64,000 bases of DNA from the NCBI RefSeq assembly GCF_006228385.1, contig NZ_CP039852.1, positions 620,001 to 684,000 on the forward strand. The letters run 5' to 3'. The stretch is from Salinimonas iocasae. Its GTDB lineage: Bacteria; Pseudomonadota; Gammaproteobacteria; Enterobacterales; Alteromonadaceae. Each line of letters starts with the position of its first letter. Position 1 is the stretch's first letter. Positions 39,766 to 64,000 of the stretch are shown piece after piece. Made by a program: the position numbers and the translations under genes. The notes under the pieces are model-generated. The model saw nothing but the letters and a program-made list of their open reading frames with translations. It was not told the DNA's origin and searched no databases.

Positions 39766-40173
39766 TCAGCCTTTTTTAACCAGTACAGATACTTTGTCTA
39801 TGCCGGCAATTTTAACCTGGTTCATCACTTCAACCACGATACCTTCTTCGGTATCTTCATCGGCCTGAATAGCCGCAGTATCAGTATTGTTTTCAGCCAG
39901 AAACGTTTGCGCATTGGCAACAACGCGGCGAACGTCAACTTCACGACCACCCATGAAAATTTGGCCATTTTCGTCAATACGAATTGAAAGCGACTTGGAA
40001 GGTTTGTTGTTATTCGACTGATTATCTTCAGGACGATTAACATCAAGGCTCTTCTCATTAACGAAAGACGTGGTAACAATGAAGAAGATCAACATGATGA
40101 ACACAATGTCCAACATGGGCGTCATGTCAACCTGAGCTTCGTCCTCAGCAGATGTATGCTTTTTTCTTTTCAT
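39766..40173 (-). CDS. ExbD/TolR-family biopolymer transport protein (orphan)
   Basis: This 135-residue protein has one N-terminal membrane helix with the ExbD proton-carrier motif MTPMLDIVFIMLIFF (Asp at about 22), then a periplasmic domain with the segment SLSIRIDENGQIFMGGREVD. It would pair with an ExbB-type channel and TonB to power outer-membrane transport. No exbB or tonB lies beside it, so its partner is elsewhere. It provides a direct reference for recognising the ExbD-like helices in the VWA proteins further right. Monocistronic with a terminator. Confidence 0.9.
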   Translation of the reverse strand: MKRKKHTSAEDEAQVDMTPMLDIVFIMLIFFIVTTSFVNEKSLDVNRPEDNQSNNNKPSKSLSIRIDENGQIFMGGREVDVRRVVANAQTFLAENNTDTAAIQADEDTEEGIVVEVMNQVKIAGIDKVSVLVKKG

Positions 40174-55738: not shown

Positions 55739-56257
55739 TTACATCTGCTCTTGAGCAGAGCTTCGTTTTTCTATTTTTCTGCTCACCGCTATCCAGGAAG
55801 CCCGCTGCTTTTGTATTGCGCGACCTACCGGGCTGGCCACATTCATAAAGTGAAATGTTTTCATTTTAGCAAGGCGCTGCAGTGAGTAGTCCACAGGCAA
55901 GCCTGCGGCACCCAGAAATCGCTGCTTCATGACCTGTTGCTGGGGATCCTGCTCGCTGAAACCCGAATCCATTAACAGCGAGTACGCCTTGAGTGTCAGT
56001 GCCTGATTGGCCCTGCGCAATTTTGATACTGCAGCTACATTGACCAGAATTAAACAGACCATAGCGGCAACATTAGGCAGTGTCGCAATGGCACTAACGG
56101 TAGGGTAGGCGCTCAGGCGCTGTGCATAAACAGCATCAAAGTTATTATAGGTCGACACGCCCATGGCTGCGATAAGCCCGAAGCTGATAAGAATAACCGC
56201 AAGTATCAGCCTGACAGCTTTTTCACGATCGTTAATGGCGCTTTCTAGTTCAGTCAT
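55739..56257 (-). CDS. Unknown two-helix membrane protein
   Basis: I do not recognise this 172-residue protein. Two membrane helices (about 15-36 and 60-80) enclose a short loop. A basic, helical C-terminal tail of about 90 residues includes SKLRRANQALTLKAYSLLMD and several Arg/Lys. It is 121 bases downstream of the VWA gene on the same strand, so it may be the last gene of that operon or a separate unit. It has its own terminator. Confidence 0.65.
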   Translation of the reverse strand: MTELESAINDREKAVRLILAVILISFGLIAAMGVSTYNNFDAVYAQRLSAYPTVSAIATLPNVAAMVCLILVNVAAVSKLRRANQALTLKAYSLLMDSGFSEQDPQQQVMKQRFLGAAGLPVDYSLQRLAKMKTFHFMNVASPVGRAIQKQRASWIAVSRKIEKRSSAQEQM

Positions 56258-56378: not shown

Positions 56379-57332
56379 TTAAAAGTACAACCCGACAAAG
56401 GCGCCTCTGTTTCGTTTGGCTACGGCCTGCATAAAGGCAGCGAACTGCTGGGCGTTACCGTTTCTGGGTCGGTTAAAACCGATCCCATGTATTCGCACTT
56501 TAGCGCGCCCGCTCTGGTCGGCATTTTTTCTGGTTATTTGTGATACCACACTGTCCAGATCAGCGGGGCGATAATCGTCACCAAATACATAGAGACTGAC
56601 TTTGCCCTGGGTGTTCCCGTACAAATCCAGCGCCTCGTTAATACCCACTTCCGGGGCACTCGCCCCACCTCTGAAACCGGCAAGACGTGAAATCGCCTTG
56701 TCCCGCATCGACTGACTGTCGCTCAGCCACTTACCGCGCTGCGTCGAATACATGTGGGTGCCGTCCGCCGCCATAATCTGGAAGCCTTTCATCTGTGGGT
56801 GAGATTTAATGATGTCCTTCACCACCTGTGTCACCTTCGTCCAGCTGCTGCCTGATGACATAGACCCGGAATTATCGATAACAAACACCACATAGTCCGC
56901 ATCGGTAGGAATACCACCAACCTCCTCATCAGGCTCCTGGGTGCTGTTTTCCACGTTTAAGCGAGCATTGGCCTGGCGAATTTCCTCACGCAGCGATTTT
57001 GCTTTGTCCTGTAATTGAGCCAGTGTTTGCTGTGCCCTTGGAATAGACGTTTCCAGGTTTTTCTGTTGTTCTGTTACCGATGCTGACTGTGCCTTTGCTG
57101 CAGCCAGCTCCTGCTGCTTATCAGATAACGCCCCTTTTAGTGATTCTACCGATTGCTGGGCTGACAGAACATTTTCAATCAGCACCGACAAATCCGCAGC
57201 GCCTCGTTCGGTATCCTGCTCCCCATTTTTGGCCAGCAAAACCAGCATAATGACCGCCCCGAATGCGCAGGAGATGATATCCAGGAAGGACAGGTTGAAA
57301 ACTTCGATAGGAGGCCGCTTTATTCGTCGCAT
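56379..57332 (-). CDS. VWA-domain protein with ExbD/MotB-like N-terminal helix, subunit 1
   Basis: The 317-residue protein has a short basic N-terminus, one membrane helix beginning FNLSFLDIISCAFGAV (Asp18 at the position of the ExbD/TolR proton-carrying Asp), a coiled coil (about 45-130) and a C-terminal VWA domain. The VWA metal site (MIDAS) DNSGSMSS is near residue 150. The ATG at 57332 has GGAG eight bases upstream and shares the TGATG overlap with the preceding gene; a GTG at 57341 is possible. The VWA domain would be periplasmic. Likely partner of the adjacent proton channel; this is inference. Confidence 0.8.
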   Translation of the reverse strand: MRRIKRPPIEVFNLSFLDIISCAFGAVIMLVLLAKNGEQDTERGAADLSVLIENVLSAQQSVESLKGALSDKQQELAAAKAQSASVTEQQKNLETSIPRAQQTLAQLQDKAKSLREEIRQANARLNVENSTQEPDEEVGGIPTDADYVVFVIDNSGSMSSGSSWTKVTQVVKDIIKSHPQMKGFQIMAADGTHMYSTQRGKWLSDSQSMRDKAISRLAGFRGGASAPEVGINEALDLYGNTQGKVSLYVFGDDYRPADLDSVVSQITRKNADQSGRAKVRIHGIGFNRPRNGNAQQFAAFMQAVAKRNRGAFVGLYF

Positions 57333-58390
57333 CAGGGCCACTCCGGTGCCGGGGACAAGAAGGTTCCGCCATTACTGTTGGTCCAGCTCCAGTATAGAGA
57401 GGGCGCGAATGGGTCCCCTTCAATGGGCAGTAAAATCACATTGACGGTGACGCCACGGGGGCCGCGCTTGACGGTTTCCAGAAATAGCAGCTGCCGACAG
57501 TCTGATGAAATTGATTTTTTGCTGCTGATGAAGTTTTTGCATTTAAGCGGCAGGCCCTCACCAAGTGTTGGTAAGCCATCTGTTATCAGATAAAGATCCG
57601 TAAGATCGGGGTTTGTATTCATCATGGTTGCCAGCCCATCCTGCAGATTCGTCCCGCCATCCGGCACAATCTCGCCAATCTGTTTAGCAATAGCTTTGAG
57701 TGAACCGCTGGCGCCCGCGGTGTTGACCGGCCGCATTCCCAAAACCGAAGCGGTGTCTGAAAAAGCCACCACAGATACTTTTGATTTTTGTGGCAGGCGG
57801 GCCAGCAACCAGTTGGCCACCCGTCGCGTCCTGCGCCATTTTGCGCTGGCAATTTTTTTACTATCCGGTAACGCAAGCTTACTCAATACCTCAATAAGGT
57901 TATCTCCCATCATGGAAGCACTCTTATCAATCAGAATACCGATATGCTTTCCTTCAACCCGCATCCCTGTAATGTAGCTCTGCTCGCCAGTGCCGCTCAT
58001 GGCGATGTTGGCATCCGGGGTTGGGATACTGGCAACAGCAGCTAACTGGTTTTCCAGGTCGGCCACTACCGCTAACTGTGATGAAATATCCTGCAGCAGT
58101 TTGTCCTGTTGCTGGGTGGTTTCATTCTGGTTTTGTTGTGACTCATCCTGTTTGCCAGCTTCCATGGCAATATTTTCGTTTATTTCATCGATGGATTTTT
58201 GCAATTGCTGCTGTTCACGTTGAGCCGCTGCTAATTCAGACTCAAGCTTCTTTTGTTCCGGCGCGGCGGTATCACTGAAGGCGTTAAAATCCACCAGAAT
58301 GAATATCAGAATAACAGCGCCTAACCCGCATGCCATCACATCCAGGAACGACAGGTTAAAGCCATCTTCAGTGCGCCGCTTATGTTTCAT
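57332..58390 (-). CDS. VWA-domain protein with ExbD/MotB-like N-terminal helix, subunit 2
   Basis: This 352-residue paralogue has FNLSFLDVMACGLGAV (Asp17) at the head of its only membrane helix, a long coiled coil rich in Gln and Glu (about 45-120), and a VWA domain with MIDAS DKSASMMGD near residue 155. The C-terminal part contains a CKNF/DCRQLLF cysteine pair that subunit 1 lacks. The stop overlaps the start of subunit 1, and the ATG is six bases after the channel gene, so all three are likely made together in fixed ratio. Confidence 0.8.
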   Translation of the reverse strand: MKHKRRTEDGFNLSFLDVMACGLGAVILIFILVDFNAFSDTAAPEQKKLESELAAAQREQQQLQKSIDEINENIAMEAGKQDESQQNQNETTQQQDKLLQDISSQLAVVADLENQLAAVASIPTPDANIAMSGTGEQSYITGMRVEGKHIGILIDKSASMMGDNLIEVLSKLALPDSKKIASAKWRRTRRVANWLLARLPQKSKVSVVAFSDTASVLGMRPVNTAGASGSLKAIAKQIGEIVPDGGTNLQDGLATMMNTNPDLTDLYLITDGLPTLGEGLPLKCKNFISSKKSISSDCRQLLFLETVKRGPRGVTVNVILLPIEGDPFAPSLYWSWTNSNGGTFLSPAPEWP

Positions 58391-58396
58391 AACTGC

Positions 58397-59188
58397 CTAG
58401 TTGTGTAAGTGAGACAGTAAATGTTTTTCACAGGACTCCTGGGTGCGCAGCACCATTGCATCCTGGCGGGCGTTGAGCAGATGCATAAAAAACATCAGTA
58501 TCAGCGAGATAAAAAGGGCCACTAAGGTTGAGTTAAACGCGACACCCAATGAAGCTGTCATACCCGAGATATCGCCGGCCAGCGCAGCATCAGCCTGAGC
58601 CAGCGCCTGTCCTATTCCGCGAACCGTACCGACAAAGCCGATAGAGGGGATAGCCCAGATGATATAGCGAATCATATTGTTTCCGCTTTCAAGCTGTGCA
58701 GAAAGGTTATCGACAGAGGACTCAATAGCATCAGCCGCGTGTTGCACGTTGCGGGTGTTGCGAAATCGTCGGATACAGTTTATCCACGTAGCCATCGCCG
58801 GATTCTCACTGTATGACGAAGCATTCAGCTCTTTGAGGGCTTCATCCACATTAAGTGGTTGTGATTTGTCGTGCTCTTTTAAAAAATCCCGGGTGTAAAG
58901 TGGCTCCTCATCTACCAGACGCCAAAGTTTAAAGAGCATCAGAAAGATACAAAAGAACATAAGAGACAGACATATCTGCTGCTCCAGGTCTTTAAGAATA
59001 ACCCAAATGGAACTGAGTGAAGACGTTCCCTGTGTGGCCAGTATCGTTTCCGCTGCAGGGCGAACGACGCCTGCGTAAAACAGGTGAACCACTGTAAAGC
59101 TTGCAACCAGCACAATGATGCTGATCACCAGGTTCGGGTTCATAGACGCATTATTTTGTTTAGTCATAGTCACAGCCATGGTATGCAT
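58397..59188 (-). CDS. MotA/TolQ/ExbB-family proton channel
   Basis: The 263-residue membrane protein has four helices (about 18-40, 68-90, 165-185, 208-232). The last two contain IPSIGFVGTVRGIGQAL and LGVAFNSTLVALFISLILMFF, the family's channel-lining pattern with the conserved polar Thr-rich stretch. A large cytoplasmic region lies between helices 2 and 3. It would conduct protons with an ExbD-like partner, here probably the two VWA proteins. It begins directly after the stop of a 35-residue gene (TAAATG); later in-frame ATGs at 59179 and 59167 are possible starts. Confidence 0.85.
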   Translation of the reverse strand: MHTMAVTMTKQNNASMNPNLVISIIVLVASFTVVHLFYAGVVRPAAETILATQGTSSLSSIWVILKDLEQQICLSLMFFCIFLMLFKLWRLVDEEPLYTRDFLKEHDKSQPLNVDEALKELNASSYSENPAMATWINCIRRFRNTRNVQHAADAIESSVDNLSAQLESGNNMIRYIIWAIPSIGFVGTVRGIGQALAQADAALAGDISGMTASLGVAFNSTLVALFISLILMFFMHLLNARQDAMVLRTQESCEKHLLSHLHN

Positions 59189-59296
59189 TTAAATGTTGGT
59201 CGGAAAATCCTGAGGCGCGTCAAGTGAAACAAAGTACGCAGTGGCGGTTCCGGTGATTGCAATTAGAATTGCAGCAATGAGTAGTTTCTTTTTCAT
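59189..59296 (-). CDS. 35-residue single-helix membrane peptide
   Basis: A short frame, easily missed, encodes MKKKLLIAAILIAITGTATA followed by YFVSLDAPQDFPTNI. Three lysines precede one hydrophobic helix (about 5-24) and a short acidic tail. AAGG lies seven bases before the ATG, the stop abuts the ATG of the proton-channel gene, and the gene is nine bases after the stop of the PEGA/FGE-like gene. The spacing argues for a real translated subunit. It could be an uncleaved membrane peptide or a secreted short peptide; function is unknown. Confidence 0.65.
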   Translation of the reverse strand: MKKKLLIAAILIAITGTATAYFVSLDAPQDFPTNI

Positions 59297-59305
59297 GGTT
59301 CTGCC

Positions 59306-61297
59306 TTATTTCAGATATCGGGCAATCCGAAACCCGATATCATCCTGAGCGTCTGATTCTCCGGTACGCATGCTGCCACGCAGGCGCTTCAGTCGCCCGG
59401 TTTTGTAAGATCCGCCTTTCACTACATGCGACGCGCTGGGCGAACTGCCCAGATAATCCTTTTTTGGTGTACCTGTATCGGGAGGTGTAAGGGTATAAAA
59501 ATCGTGTACCCATTCTCTGACGTTACCGTCTAAATCAAACAGGCCACCGCGTTCGGCATCAAAGCTGCCTACCGGCGCCTTGCCTTCAAACCCATCGTCG
59601 TAATCCTTCAAAGTGAATGTTTGTTTGCCTTTTAGTGAGGCATCGGCAAAGTTACCCTGCTTACTGCGAAGCCGGTCCTGACTCCCCCAGACATATTTTG
59701 TGCTAGCCGCACGACGGTGTTTTTTAGCGGCATATTCCCACTCAGCTTCGGTAGGCAGCCGGTATCCTGTGGATGAGGGATCGACGCCACGCAGCTTACC
59801 CTGTTTAATAACATAAAATGGTGTCAGACCTTCCTGTTCACTCAGCCAGTTAGTAAATTTGGCTGCGTCCAGCCAGCTGACATTCGTTACTGGTTTTTGT
59901 GAGCGCTTATTATTGCCTTTAAAGCGAGCGTACTGGGCTTCGGTGATTTCGTGCCTGGACAGCCAAAACGCGCGGGTGAATGTTACCGGATACTGGTGTT
60001 CATTTCGCTGGCGTCCGGCCTCATTCGGTGCAGAACCCATAACAAATGTGTCAGGTTTAAGTGTTTCAAACTCAATGCCGATGGTCTGAGCAAACAGAGG
60101 CTTTCCTTCACGGCGTCGTGCATCAAACTCGGTAAGCAGCTCAGCATTGACCGAAGTGAGTTTGTTGGCCGAGGGCGTTACCGATTTGCTAACGGTGCGA
60201 TAGCCGGGCTTTTTTACTTCAACAGTATGTTCAAGCGTTTGCAGCTGAGTCGTAAAGGGGGTGTTGCCCACTTTTTTTCCATCAATAAATACTTCAGCGG
60301 ATAAATTTGCATTGATAGTCACATCGCCTTTCACCGGAGCAAGGGTAAAGTCTAAAGCAGATTCCTGGCCAGGCTTGAGAGTGATCGATTGTTTTTGGGT
60401 GGCAAAACCCGCCGCACTGTAGCTGACCGTATGCTGTGTATTGGCTTCCACTTTTATCTCGCGTGCTGAGACAGGATTGCCATCCACGGTGAGCAAACCC
60501 TGAGAGGGAGAGGTGCGGACTTTTAATATCGCCTGTTCCGGGATTAATCTGTAATCCCTGCTTACCGCTTTGTTATCAGCCGTAATCGTAATTTCGTCAT
60601 TTACCGGCTCGTAACCCTGTCGGGCGACTGTAACCTGATGATTACCGCCAGGTTGCGGCAGCGATAGGGGCGTCTTACCAATGAGCTCACCGTTTAGTGT
60701 AACGCTGGCCCCGGCTGGCTGAGAGTTTATATTCAGCGACCCTGAAACCGGTGTTAACGCGATGGTTTTTTCAATCTCTTGTGCAATGTCTGCCTCAACA
60801 CTTATTGAAGCACTTTCATAAGCGGGGTGTCTGGCAGAAATTGTGTATGTGCCAGCAGCAACAGGCAGTGACACCTGGCCTGCAGTCGCCTGCGGCTGTT
60901 GGTTAACGAACCACTGAATATCCTTGCGGTTTGTATCTGTTGATACTGATATCGTCGCGGGTAGGGAAGATAGCTCTACGTTAATTGTCGAGGGAGAGGA
61001 ATCATCAATGTTAACGGTTTTGCTGGCAAACTTGGGTGCGCTCACTGTCACGGAGGCTGGCAAACCAAGGACATAGAGTTTGTTTTCCAGCATAAAACCG
61101 GTACCACTTTGTACCTCAAAATACGGGTTTTGCGCAGCACGGTCGGGCGTCACGGTAAAGGTGAAGCCTTTAATCAAAAACAGCCATATCAAATAACTGC
61201 CCAACGCGGCGACCAGTAGGCACACACTTGCCAACACGACTACTCTGTTTTTATTCCTATCGGATTTTATGGATGCATCAATACGACTCACCGCCAT
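59306..61297 (-). CDS. Membrane-anchored PEGA-repeat protein with FGE/SUMF1-like domain
   Basis: The 663-residue protein has a short cytoplasmic N-terminus and one membrane helix (about 19-42). Four PEGA-like beta-sandwich repeats (about 115-390) follow, with PAGASVTLNGELIGKTPLS and SAEVFIDGKKVGNTPF the clearest, and then a C-terminal FGE-sulfatase-like domain (about 405-663): GYRLPTEAEWEYAAK, GLFDLDGNVREWVHD, VKGGSYKTG. The only cysteine in the protein is in the membrane helix, so the copper-binding cysteine pair of true formylglycine-generating enzymes is absent. It probably binds ligand or wall components in the periplasm. AAGGAAGT precedes the ATG. Confidence 0.82.
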   Translation of the reverse strand: MAVSRIDASIKSDRNKNRVVVLASVCLLVAALGSYLIWLFLIKGFTFTVTPDRAAQNPYFEVQSGTGFMLENKLYVLGLPASVTVSAPKFASKTVNIDDSSPSTINVELSSLPATISVSTDTNRKDIQWFVNQQPQATAGQVSLPVAAGTYTISARHPAYESASISVEADIAQEIEKTIALTPVSGSLNINSQPAGASVTLNGELIGKTPLSLPQPGGNHQVTVARQGYEPVNDEITITADNKAVSRDYRLIPEQAILKVRTSPSQGLLTVDGNPVSAREIKVEANTQHTVSYSAAGFATQKQSITLKPGQESALDFTLAPVKGDVTINANLSAEVFIDGKKVGNTPFTTQLQTLEHTVEVKKPGYRTVSKSVTPSANKLTSVNAELLTEFDARRREGKPLFAQTIGIEFETLKPDTFVMGSAPNEAGRQRNEHQYPVTFTRAFWLSRHEITEAQYARFKGNNKRSQKPVTNVSWLDAAKFTNWLSEQEGLTPFYVIKQGKLRGVDPSSTGYRLPTEAEWEYAAKKHRRAASTKYVWGSQDRLRSKQGNFADASLKGKQTFTLKDYDDGFEGKAPVGSFDAERGGLFDLDGNVREWVHDFYTLTPPDTGTPKKDYLGSSPSASHVVKGGSYKTGRLKRLRGSMRTGESDAQDDIGFRIARYLK

Positions 61298-61328
61298 ACT
61301 TCCTTATTATCTGGATATAAACGTGCCA

Positions 61329-62768
61329 TCAGACTTTCTCAGTACAGACCAGGCGAACTGACAGGGGATAGGTGTTTGCACTTACTGTGACCGAAATGAT
61401 TTTCGAGCGATAGCCCTCACGGCTGCCTTCAAACCGGTAGGTACCTGGTTTAAGTGAAATCTGTTTTTCATCGACTTTACCGACCACGCCAACGCCCATT
61501 ACTTTTATATAGGTTTTGCTGTCTGAATATACTGTCACCGGTAACGGTGCATTAGAGCCCGATAACGCTGATTCCAGGTCACTAATTGAGTTTTGTAATG
61601 ACGGACTCAACGCAGAAATCTCAGATGCCTGGCTTATAGCGCGCTCAGCATTGGCGCGGATCCGTTCATCAGCTAAACGTTGGGGACGCGCCAGATATTG
61701 CTCTATGGTCTGACGGGCAGACAGTATTTTTTCAGCGTTTGTTCTGGCAAGCTGAAGAACCTGGCTTTGCGGAAAAGACTGGATGGATTTTTCAGCAAGC
61801 ATACTTACCGTTTTCCATTCATCGGCCTGAGCAAATACCCTAATCTGCGCTTCGACGTCAGCCTGCCCGGCTGCACGCTGTTCCTGGTCAATTCTGGCCT
61901 GTAAAGTCGCTACCTGAGCATTATTCGGTTTCAGTTTTGAGGCCTGGATTAATAGCTCACGGGCCCGATCGTATGCTTTTGATTCAACAGCTTTTATCGC
62001 CTGGGACATTACGGCGCTGAAAGAGGTGTCACCTATCTGTTGCTCAACCTGTGAAAGTGCTTGCTTAGCTTCTGCCTGTTCGGGATCCAGCGCGACAATT
62101 TTCTGCAATGCCTCATACTGCTTTTGCAGATTATTTTCTACCTTGCCCACACGAGCCTGTTCGTACAGGGATTGCACTTCTGCAAAAACATCAATGCGCG
62201 CTTTAAGCGCCAGCGCCGGCGCATCGTCAGGTTTTACGTTTAGCGCAGCAGAAACCGCTGAGCGGGCATCATGAATATTGCCGTTTTTATAGGCAGAACG
62301 CGCTTCTTCCAGTGCAGAAATATACGCCTGTTCATACGCGGTATTAAACTGCGAAAGCGCCTTATCAATATCGTCCAGCGTATCTTCTGTGCGCTGGAAA
62401 TGACTTTGTCCGTAAAGCGCGTAAGCCTTTTGCAAGCGTTCATTTAAGGAACTAACCGTATCAGGCTGCCAGTTACGTTTCGCATCACTGATAGCAGAAA
62501 GCACAGCTTTTGTCTGGCTTAAACGCTGCTGTAACGCGCGCTTTTCATCGTCACTAAGGGTTTTGGCCAGCTGCGCAGCCTCATTATCTGCTCCCCTTTG
62601 CTGCTTCTCATCGGAAGCAGCGCTGTCGGGCTCGCCTGATAACAACGGCACTATCAGGTAAAGCGCCAACGCCAGAAGTGCTGCCAGAGCTATCGCTACA
62701 GTCAGCTTTAGCAGCACCGATTTGTGATGTTTTTTGCCCTGATCGATGTCCCTGTCTATACTGCTCAC
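61329..62768 (-). CDS. Single-pass coiled-coil/TPR-like protein with PEGA-like C-terminus
   Basis: The 479-residue protein has an N-terminal cytoplasmic tail, one membrane helix (about 20-45) and a long helical periplasmic region (about 60-390). The helical region has repeated units such as ARSAYKNGNIHDARSAVSAA and YEALQKIVALDPEQAEAKQA that look TPR-like. The C-terminal 80 residues (YIKVMGVGVVGK, LKPGTYRFEGSREGYRSK) resemble a PEGA fold. Translation starts at GTG (62768) with AGG nine bases upstream. It probably forms a periplasmic arm for the PEGA/FGE-like protein 31 bases downstream. No named family is recognised. Confidence 0.75.
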   Translation of the reverse strand: MSSIDRDIDQGKKHHKSVLLKLTVAIALAALLALALYLIVPLLSGEPDSAASDEKQQRGADNEAAQLAKTLSDDEKRALQQRLSQTKAVLSAISDAKRNWQPDTVSSLNERLQKAYALYGQSHFQRTEDTLDDIDKALSQFNTAYEQAYISALEEARSAYKNGNIHDARSAVSAALNVKPDDAPALALKARIDVFAEVQSLYEQARVGKVENNLQKQYEALQKIVALDPEQAEAKQALSQVEQQIGDTSFSAVMSQAIKAVESKAYDRARELLIQASKLKPNNAQVATLQARIDQEQRAAGQADVEAQIRVFAQADEWKTVSMLAEKSIQSFPQSQVLQLARTNAEKILSARQTIEQYLARPQRLADERIRANAERAISQASEISALSPSLQNSISDLESALSGSNAPLPVTVYSDSKTYIKVMGVGVVGKVDEKQISLKPGTYRFEGSREGYRSKIISVTVSANTYPLSVRLVCTEKV

Positions 62769-62783
62769 GCTAGGTACCTGTGG

Positions 62784-64000
62784 TTATAATTGCTGATCAG
62801 GGGTCGCTTCAAGCTGATAAATTTCGTACAGACGCTGACGAAGCTGTGTATGCTGCTCTGCAGCTGTACCGGTTAACTCAATGCTCTGATCTTTGAACTC
62901 AACCACTTGCGGAGTGACTTTGATATCCAGGTTTTCACCTTTCTCCTCAAGAATATCCCGGACTCCCTGAATTTCCTTATTGGTTTTGACCGCATCAGCC
63001 AGCGAGACCGCTGCAGCCACACCAGCCACAGCAGCGCCGACCTGACCTGCGGTAGACCCTGAGTTTTTACCCAGCAAAACAGCAGCAACCAGTCCGATGC
63101 CCGCTATTGCCTGCGCCTGAGTCCGTTCTTCTTTTTTACGGCGGATATCCGCTGCAATAGGCAGGGTTTCTTTTTGATAAGTACGGTACACATCATGCGT
63201 TTCGGCATAGAACGTTTCGTAGCTATCCTGCAGGGAATCAACAAACTGGTTGTCTTTTGCCTGAATACGCTGAATGCGCTGATACATCGGATCCTGGGCT
63301 GATGGCGCACCTTTTAACTCAAAATGTGCCTGAGAGGCGCCCCAGCTTTTCTCTTTTTCCAGATACGGGCTGAATGCTTCTGGTGAGTACATCGCCGCGT
63401 AACGTAAGTCTGCAATTTGCTCAATCTCACGTTTGTCGCTTTCTGACTTTTTCATCAGCACGTCATAGATATGGGCCGCGATTTGATTAAATATGGGTTC
63501 GTAAGGGTTGCCGCCTTTACGAAATGCATCGCGGTAGAAGCCTTCACTGACCCGGTATTCAAATTCTTCTTCATCCCATACCCGGTTGGCGGCGTCCATA
63601 ATTCGAATACCGATTTCGACGGTTTCAGTATCGGAGTAATTGATTTTACCCAACACATACACGTCGGCACTGGCATTGGCATCAGGGGTAACGTTAATCG
63701 CGCCAAAGGCATTTGTTTCCTGCAGGGCTTTCTTGGTATTGATGGCAAAGCGGTTGGCCTCGAGCCGTCTGACCTGCGGCCAGATATCCTGCTCAACAAC
63801 CTCTTCATCATCAATATTGCCATATTTATCGGTGGGGATACCCGGATCGAAAACAGGAATGGCAACATCTAAGAATATATTCGAAGAATAGTTGTATTTT
63901 CGTTTTGCATTGCCCAACTCACCGCCGGATTGCGGGCCGCCCAGTGTCGGGCCTACGCTGGTCACATTGGTCTGTGTACTCTGGCACCCGGCCAGTGCAA
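62784..64000 (-). CDS. Lipoprotein of the VWA/proton-channel operon (5' end outside window)
   Basis: At least 404 residues are visible and the N-terminus is cut by the window edge. The frame runs to the edge, and the outermost codons read ALAGCQSTQTN, a lipobox with Cys followed by Gln, so this is predicted to be an outer-membrane lipoprotein. The first ~190 residues resemble a domain of envelope lipoproteins (VDVAIPVFDPG-like opening, AINVTPDANASADVYVLGKI). Near residues 285-325 is a glycine/alanine-rich stretch (AIAGIGLVAAVLLG, VGAAVAGVAAAVSLADAV) that could insert in a membrane or pack as a glycine zipper. The stop is 15 bases before the next gene. Function is unknown. Confidence 0.75.
   Translation of the reverse strand, partial: ALAGCQSTQTNVTSVGPTLGGPQSGGELGNAKRKYNYSSNIFLDVAIPVFDPGIPTDKYGNIDDEEVVEQDIWPQVRRLEANRFAINTKKALQETNAFGAINVTPDANASADVYVLGKINYSDTETVEIGIRIMDAANRVWDEEEFEYRVSEGFYRDAFRKGGNPYEPIFNQIAAHIYDVLMKKSESDKREIEQIADLRYAAMYSPEAFSPYLEKEKSWGASQAHFELKGAPSAQDPMYQRIQRIQAKDNQFVDSLQDSYETFYAETHDVYRTYQKETLPIAADIRRKKEERTQAQAIAGIGLVAAVLLGKNSGSTAGQVGAAVAGVAAAVSLADAVKTNKEIQGVRDILEEKGENLDIKVTPQVVEFKDQSIELTGTAAEQHTQLRQRLYEIYQLEATPDQQL

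Follow-up and report, generated by a model that had tools for sequence, protein, structure and literature searches.

What might a MotA/TolQ/ExbB-type channel power when its gene lies among those for a lipoprotein, a PEGA/FGE-like protein, a short peptide, and two VWA proteins? This question is raised by a gene set at 56379..64000 on the minus strand of a 64,000-nucleotide stretch of the two-contig genome of Salinimonas iocasae (contig NZ_CP039852.1, positions 620,001 to 684,000), which is called the window here and whose coordinates are used throughout. Swimming and gliding, the uptake of nutrients, the upkeep of the outer membrane, and phage defense are all powered by proton motors of the MotAB/ExbBD/TolQR class. 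The present motor gene set occurs in several bacterial classes with no reported job, and its membership is defined and includes two distinct candidates for the B-subunit as well as a peptide that is probably exported. On balance, we favor reading it as a trans-envelope proton motor of the 5:2 type whose target is an assembly in the outer membrane and whose ligand is an exported peptide.

A sequence-only reading of this DNA had described seven tightly spaced minus-strand genes, and all seven open reading frames (ORFs) are confirmed in position and strand, with gaps of no more than 31 bases and a largest overlap of 10. Along the coordinates, the products are VWA-B, VWA-A, the channel, a 35-residue peptide, the PEGA/FGE-like protein, a TPR protein, and the lipoprotein. 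The VWA-B and VWA-A genes overlap by 10 bases, or by 1 base if VWA-B begins at the ATG at 57332; the intergenic distances that follow are 6 bases (VWA-A/channel), 0 (channel/peptide), 9 (peptide/FGE), 31 (FGE/TPR), and 15 (TPR/lipoprotein).

Gene order was compared over a 53-locus set, which was gathered by scanning named genomes once with the channel as the query, and over 28 further loci scanned separately; several loci are metagenome-assembled genomes, whose taxon labels are possibly wrong. The six genes detectable with hidden Markov models (lipoprotein-TPR-FGE-channel-VWA-A-VWA-B) lie on one strand in the same order in 44 of the 53 loci and in the S. iocasae genome itself, and again in 21 of the 28 further loci (20 of 27 once L111, which duplicates L023, is set aside). 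Conserved synteny had been named beforehand as a test of the sequence-only reading, which withstood it; judged by these counts, the six-gene order is not due to chance. Ten of the 16 loci without the full order end at a contig edge (L035, L051, L053, L056, L057, L059, L062, L084, L088, and L096) and five represent different neighborhoods (L060, L066, L122, L123, and L124). The last one, L091 (L091:3812-6202, minus strand), encodes the micropeptide, adjoining the channel, and both VWA proteins; no FGE gene was found within 1.6 kb on the upstream side of its channel. Throughout, the gene set, its conserved residues, and the peptide tail are taken directly from sequence, and folds are given at the confidence of their models.

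A channel and two unlike VWA proteins

The candidate motor core comprises three genes, listed here with the codons of two membrane-helix residues.

56379..57341, minus strand: VWA-B, 320 amino acids, GTG start (ATG at 57332 possible); N-terminal helix with Asp21, coiled-coil-like stretch, VWA domain with residues typical of a metal ion-dependent adhesion site (MIDAS)
57279..57281, minus strand: codon of VWA-B membrane-helix Asp21, from ORF coordinates and conservation counts
57332..58390, minus strand: VWA-A, 352 amino acids; N-terminal helix with Asp17, coiled-coil-like stretch, VWA domain
58340..58342, minus strand: codon of VWA-A membrane-helix Asp17, from ORF coordinates and conservation counts
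58397..59188, minus strand: MotA/TolQ/ExbB-type channel, 263 amino acids, PF01618; pore Thr188 and Thr221 invariant

The channel scores 57.9 bits against PF01618 (Pfam cut-off, 22.9), and the VWA domain (PF13519) is recognized in the two proteins at 29.4 and 32.8 bits (cut-off, 27); together with the PEGA/FGE-like protein treated below, every one of these assignments made in the sequence-only reading lies above the Pfam cut-off. Conservation counts leave out L060, L066, L111, and L122-L124, and rows shorter than 240 residues for the channel, 320 for VWA-A, 280 for VWA-B, 600 for the FGE protein, and 380 for the TPR protein were dropped. The channel residues Thr188 and Thr221, located in the last two helices, are present in 74/74 rows and line up with relatives from the same genome matched by profile; pore threonines of such channels are described as essential in the available part of a 2025 paper (PMC12204202). 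A search of PDB sequences with the channel profile returned nothing at E 0.001.

Both VWA proteins open with a membrane helix bearing an invariant Asp, which makes them candidate B-subunits: Asp21 of VWA-B is found in 73/73 rows, and Asp17 of VWA-A in 65/65 rows having a residue there, the other 9 carrying Asp behind a CTG. The two first helices are paralogous, sharing the outline S-F-L-D-x-x-x-C-[G/A]-x-G-A, and their profile similarity to ExbD is weak, yet above that of two control helices. Coiled-coil stretches of about 75 to 95 residues, taken from coiled-coil-type matches, follow, and the MIDAS-type residues of the VWA domains are nearly fixed: D155, S157, S159, and D271 of VWA-A in 74/74 rows and T247 in 72, and D156, S158, S160, S228, and D255 of VWA-B in 73/73. 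In VWA-A of nine loci (L038, L084, L086, L087, L088, L090, L091, L092, and L095), there is no in-frame ATG, GTG, or TTG between the last stop and the conserved helix, and all nine have a CTG close to where the start is expected.

No ExbD domain (PF02472) is among the Pfam matches for the gene set (for VWA-B, the best 25 of 35 rows), and the absence of ExbD, MotB, and TonB noted in the sequence-only reading likewise stands for the matches listed. Its proposal that VWA and PEGA modules replace ExbD/MotB divides in two: the VWA part is upheld by the invariant helix Asp, and the PEGA part falls, the array lying inside the FGE protein. The two unlike VWA proteins seem to occupy the ExbD/MotB place and are best read as the two B-subunits of the motor. 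A channel without a B-subunit was rejected, since the VWA helix Asp was found. The set thus contains a PF01618 A-subunit, two pore threonines, and B-subunit helices with Asp, as in 5:2 motors, with proton binding predicted from these residues. Within the window, PF01618 is matched nowhere except in this channel; the genome has four ExbD-domain genes outside the gene set. An orphan ExbD gene (PF02472) lies at 39766-40173 on the minus strand, 16 to 18 kb from the gene set, with cellulose-type genes and a PEP-CTERM-like protein as neighbors (by eye).

The sequence-only reading had called the machine undescribed, and for the motor core this does not hold. As its second vWA family, PMC12204202 (Mol Biol Evol) describes TolQ-like genes with paired helix-anchored vWA genes and no tolR/exbD as putative motor partners; the pairs were seeded with Idiomarina, are mostly heterologous, carry a helix Asp, were modeled inside the channel, and have no known function. 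Because these pairs are Idiomarina-seeded and the Idiomarina loci L026, L028, and L039 carry the whole set, we treat the core as already known. The set shares with these TPH-vWA pairs the TolQ-like gene, two unlike helix-anchored vWA genes, the lack of tolR/exbD (here no PF02472 match listed), the helix Asp, and the channel Thr. The difference lies in the accompanying genes: section 8 of PMC12204202 does not mention a lipoprotein, a TPR protein, a PEGA/FGE protein, or a micropeptide with these pairs, a TPR gene in that section being part of the paper's first vWA family. For the rest of the gene set, no mention was found: a search of the open-access literature (subscription journals, preprints, and supplements lying outside it) returned no paper on the whole set, 'vwa', 'von willebrand', and 'pega' are absent from the available passages of PMC12505986, and 'mota' and 'exbb' are absent from those of PMC7159879. 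Within the literature searched, the conserved gene set looks new, the micropeptide and its near-invariant tail most of all.

The Zorya anti-phage system is another to compare, and VWA-A residues 12 to 115 weakly match the ZorB profile (E 2.2e-5), as the channel does ZorA (E 4.2e-4). A Zorya-type system is nevertheless very improbable here: ZorC and ZorD are not among the matches listed for the seven proteins (for VWA-B, the best 25 of 30), a ground on which Zorya identity was rejected; moreover, no cytoplasmic effector is present, and the neighbors look metabolic by eye.

A micropeptide with a near-invariant C-terminus

Two features concern the short gene between the FGE and channel genes.

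59189..59296, minus strand: micropeptide, 35 residues, probably exported, hydrophobic N-terminus, C-terminal SLDAPQDFPTNI
59192..59227, minus strand: micropeptide C-terminal motif, 12 codons, counted per position in 74 loci

The 35-residue peptide of the sequence-only reading proved to be a gene, and its conserved C-terminus had gone unremarked there. This C-terminus is the most distinctive part of the gene set. The peptide gene is present in 44/44 of the fully ordered loci of the 53-locus set, and wherever FGE and channel genes neighbor each other a small reading frame with the conserved tail lies between them (74/74 loci: the S. iocasae genome, 50 of the 53-locus set, and 23 further loci, counted without the duplicate L111 and without L124, whose FGE and channel matches are weak and not adjacent). 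Its length is 35 residues in the window and greater elsewhere, start codons being uncertain, and the sequences are dissimilar apart from a hydrophobic start and the final 12 residues. The ending is [F/L/Y]-P-x-[D/N/S]-I-stop. Counted from the end over the 74 loci, it has Ile in 74, then Asp in 50, Asn in 23, or Ser in 1, then any residue, then Pro in 74, and then Phe in 71, Leu in 2 (L119 and L121), or Tyr in 1 (L083); position -10 is Asp in 60 and Asn in 14. The tail codons vary freely, with four used for Pro and three for Ile, and therefore selection acts on the micropeptide protein.

The 53 loci contain 35,154 stop-ended segments of at least 15 residues; of these, 50 with an FP..I end lie on the coding strand of the FGE-channel gap, and a single one lies elsewhere. 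An RNA leader or a chance ORF was rejected on account of this concentration and the freely varying codons. No such peptide was found beside the channel in five loci outside the syntenic set (L060, L066, L122, L123, and L124); in L066, a single [FYL]P.[DNS]I end lies about 1.5 kb from the channel, on the opposite strand. A micropeptide profile searched against a collection of 5.8 billion proteins gave 339 matches at E 0.001, named 'hypothetical protein' or by bare coordinates, and all of the 120 listed end in FPVDI, FPIDI, or FPTDI; such a search is biased to shared words, but it does not oblige the shared tail to finish exactly at the stop.

A hydrophobic run followed by a small-x-small pattern, a crude and permissive criterion, fits 70/74 micropeptides, as a cleaved signal peptide would. 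The micropeptide is thus probably exported and cleaved, and the mature form in the window would perhaps have only 15 residues, YFVSLDAPQDFPTNI. The motif suggests docking through a free C-terminus, with the VWA MIDAS site and the FGE groove as candidate docking sites. A more specific proposal, a heterodimeric-VWA proton motor gated by an exported micropeptide that docks its free C-terminus on the MIDAS site or on a pseudo-enzyme FGE groove, is possible but doubtful. To our knowledge, no 5:2 motor has peptide-licensed control, and a peptide-licensed rotary motor would be a new kind of control for such motors. Since the tail is nearly fixed, the system can be tested directly by altering a single residue or by supplying the peptide in synthetic form.

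Envelope parts and a proposed mechanism

Upstream of the peptide gene lie three further genes of the set.

59306..61297, minus strand: PEGA/FGE-like membrane-anchored protein, 663 amino acids; N-terminal helix, PEGA array, C-terminal FGE-like domain without cysteine
61329..62768, minus strand: membrane-anchored TPR protein, 479 amino acids, PF14559 and PF14853; position kept in the gene order
62784..64000 (start 64082), minus strand: lipoprotein, 432 amino acids; PelC/CsgG/TolB-N/FlgT-like domain, long helix, small C-terminal domain

The first of these combines PEGA (PF08308, 140.6 bits; cut-off, 20.8) with FGE (PF03781, 137.1 bits; cut-off, 23.3), and the PDB matches of its FGE domain are to CotH, PorK/GldK, and FGE. 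Formylglycine-generating enzymes use two cysteines for catalysis, identified on the human enzyme. The only Cys of the window protein is residue 26, in the N-terminal helix, and Cys is absent from the positions conserved in 90% of 71 rows; an enzyme of this type was rejected because the domain has no cysteines. The next protein had been labeled a single-pass coiled-coil protein, a label that gives way to TPR, with PF14559 and PF14853 both above the cut-off.

The lipoprotein gene starts 82 bases beyond the window end (L009:7285-8583 corresponds to window 62784 to 64082), the lipobox Cys still lying within the window. This Cys is present in 31/31 rows, none of which has Asp at +2. An AlphaFold2 model of the L014 copy (pLDDT, 79; pTM, 0.75) holds an alpha/beta domain of the FlgT/PelC/CsgG/TolB-N group at 7 to 13% identity. 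In the systems they come from, these folds build rings or serve for docking, and by analogy the lipoprotein domain may form a ring. An eighth conserved gene, outside the window and 5 bases upstream of the lipoprotein gene, encodes a secreted 224-residue protein (L009:8589-9263), whose profile has matches, many of them weak, in 45 of 82 loci searched. Neither the lipoprotein nor the eighth gene has a Pfam match at the cut-off, and the same holds for the extra lipoproteins tested. In loci viewed by eye, two kinds of tail, similar to each other, were seen at the end of the gene immediately upstream of that for the lipoprotein.

An FGE-fold protein beside a proton motor recalls the type 9 core (PorKLMN, GldKLMN), and a secretion or gliding engine related to it in principle deserves weighing. 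The fold that the lipoprotein shares with PelC and CsgG, which are export parts, argues in the same direction, as does GldK, the best NCBIfam match of the FGE protein. That match, at 90 bits, is far beneath the cut-off of 350, which places the protein outside the GldK family; no GldL, GldM, or GldN match was obtained at E 1 for the eight proteins scanned, and FGE and CsgG-like folds occur in many settings. Such an engine is therefore quite unlikely. The PorK FGE fold is described in the available part of PMC12421860 as the docking hub of a ring joined to the PorLM motor, with the catalytic Cys pair absent; a proton motor with a cysteine-free FGE-fold protein is thus a shared trait, not membership. 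In the present set, the FGE domain is mounted on a PEGA array with a membrane helix and not on a lipoprotein, and VWA proteins are the proposed B-subunits. The Tol-Pal and Ton systems share the channel family, the pore Thr, the helix Asp, and, in the TolB N-terminal domain, a resemblance to the lipoprotein; they differ in that the gene set has no TolA/TonB, TolB propeller, Pal, or ExbD/TolR match (TolA, TolB, and Pal domains were not listed for the eight proteins scanned with Pfam, nor for the eighth gene).

In the trans-envelope motor that we favor, the first helices of two VWA proteins, a single copy each of VWA-A and VWA-B, would be enclosed by five channel subunits. Each helix would take protons on its invariant Asp, against the two pore threonines, and the VWA pair would turn or shift. 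Coiled-coil stretches would carry the VWA heads outward through the peptidoglycan, where they may act on a periplasmic/outer-membrane assembly of the PEGA/FGE-like protein, the TPR protein, and the outer-membrane lipoprotein, with the FGE fold serving as a docking part and not as an enzyme. The free C-terminus of the micropeptide, probably an exported ligand, would dock the VWA MIDAS site or the FGE-like groove and license or couple the assembly. We infer the stoichiometry, proton use, peptide export and cleavage, contacts, and force output. Most likely, the machine would serve to move or maintain a complex of the outer membrane, as Tol-Pal or PorKLMN does; adhesion or surface sensing, put forward in the sequence-only reading, found no support. 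Overall, the observation is confirmed and its first interpretation is partly supported.

Distribution, lineage variants, and flanking genes

The gene set is patchily distributed. In the family of S. iocasae, it occurs in 13 of 59 genomes, its own included, one of them (L122) being of a divergent type; in a sample of the phylum, 16 of 299 genomes matched, 13 of them from one family and one very weakly. Among named genomes, the nearest relative by channel is Salinimonas profundi (L014), with 97% identity. VWA-A identity to Idiomarina is 67% for P0005 and P0049 and 45% for another Idiomarina species, P0114.

In 20 of the 53 loci, the channel and VWA-A genes are more than 300 bp apart, and an ORF of 428 to 470 residues is listed there in 16 of these 20. 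For this insert (L042-L064 group), an ATPase domain fold of the Hsp70 type is predicted: modeled from the L043 copy (pLDDT, 87), it matches Hsp70 proteins at E 2e-18 to 1e-16. The profile of its C-terminal beta part weakly matches an FHA-bearing kinesin chain (E 0.066), the part matched being, we presume, the FHA domain. By eye, an ORF resembling the insert also follows the channel in L060, a Verrucomicrobia-labeled contig. The insert-bearing lineage has added downstream lipoproteins in 23 and 24 loci, an upstream low-complexity lipoprotein in 22 (all lipoproteins by eye), and an M48 peptidase (Pfam, L043 copy). An upstream TPR protein with a TonB_C-like C-terminus is found at L063:2575-3915 and L046:1976-3325 (22.5 and 19.5 bits, under the Pfam cut-off of 24.6). 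The system thus grows in different directions from lineage to lineage. A related cluster from the family of S. iocasae, L122:8469-15783, has a divergent channel, an FHA-like ORF, two PP2C-like ORFs, a VWA protein with a similar helix, and a Ser/Thr-kinase-like ORF (names by eye).

These signaling parts in L122, and the Hsp70-type insert with its weakly FHA-chain-matching beta part between channel and VWA-A in 16 loci, bear on a pure sensor, in which the channel-VWA unit would relay an envelope signal inward with no mechanical work and the peptide would be the sensed ligand; the vWA domains of MoxR-type systems are in fact called peptide-binding in the available passages of PMC7159879. We consider a pure sensor unlikely, however, as the set of the window lacks a cytoplasmic signaling gene, the motor residues are all kept, and several lipidated or periplasmic parts indicate reach across the envelope.

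Around the set, scans of the locus for promoters and terminators stayed near the shuffled level (9 versus 9.5 and 13 versus 10.8, respectively). Downstream of VWA-B, at 55739-56257 on the minus strand, is a gene for a 172-residue membrane-type protein matched, among the loci searched, only in the S. iocasae genome, L014, and L015. The flanking genes look metabolic, with formaldehyde-type genes downstream and transketolase and transaldolase upstream (names by eye).

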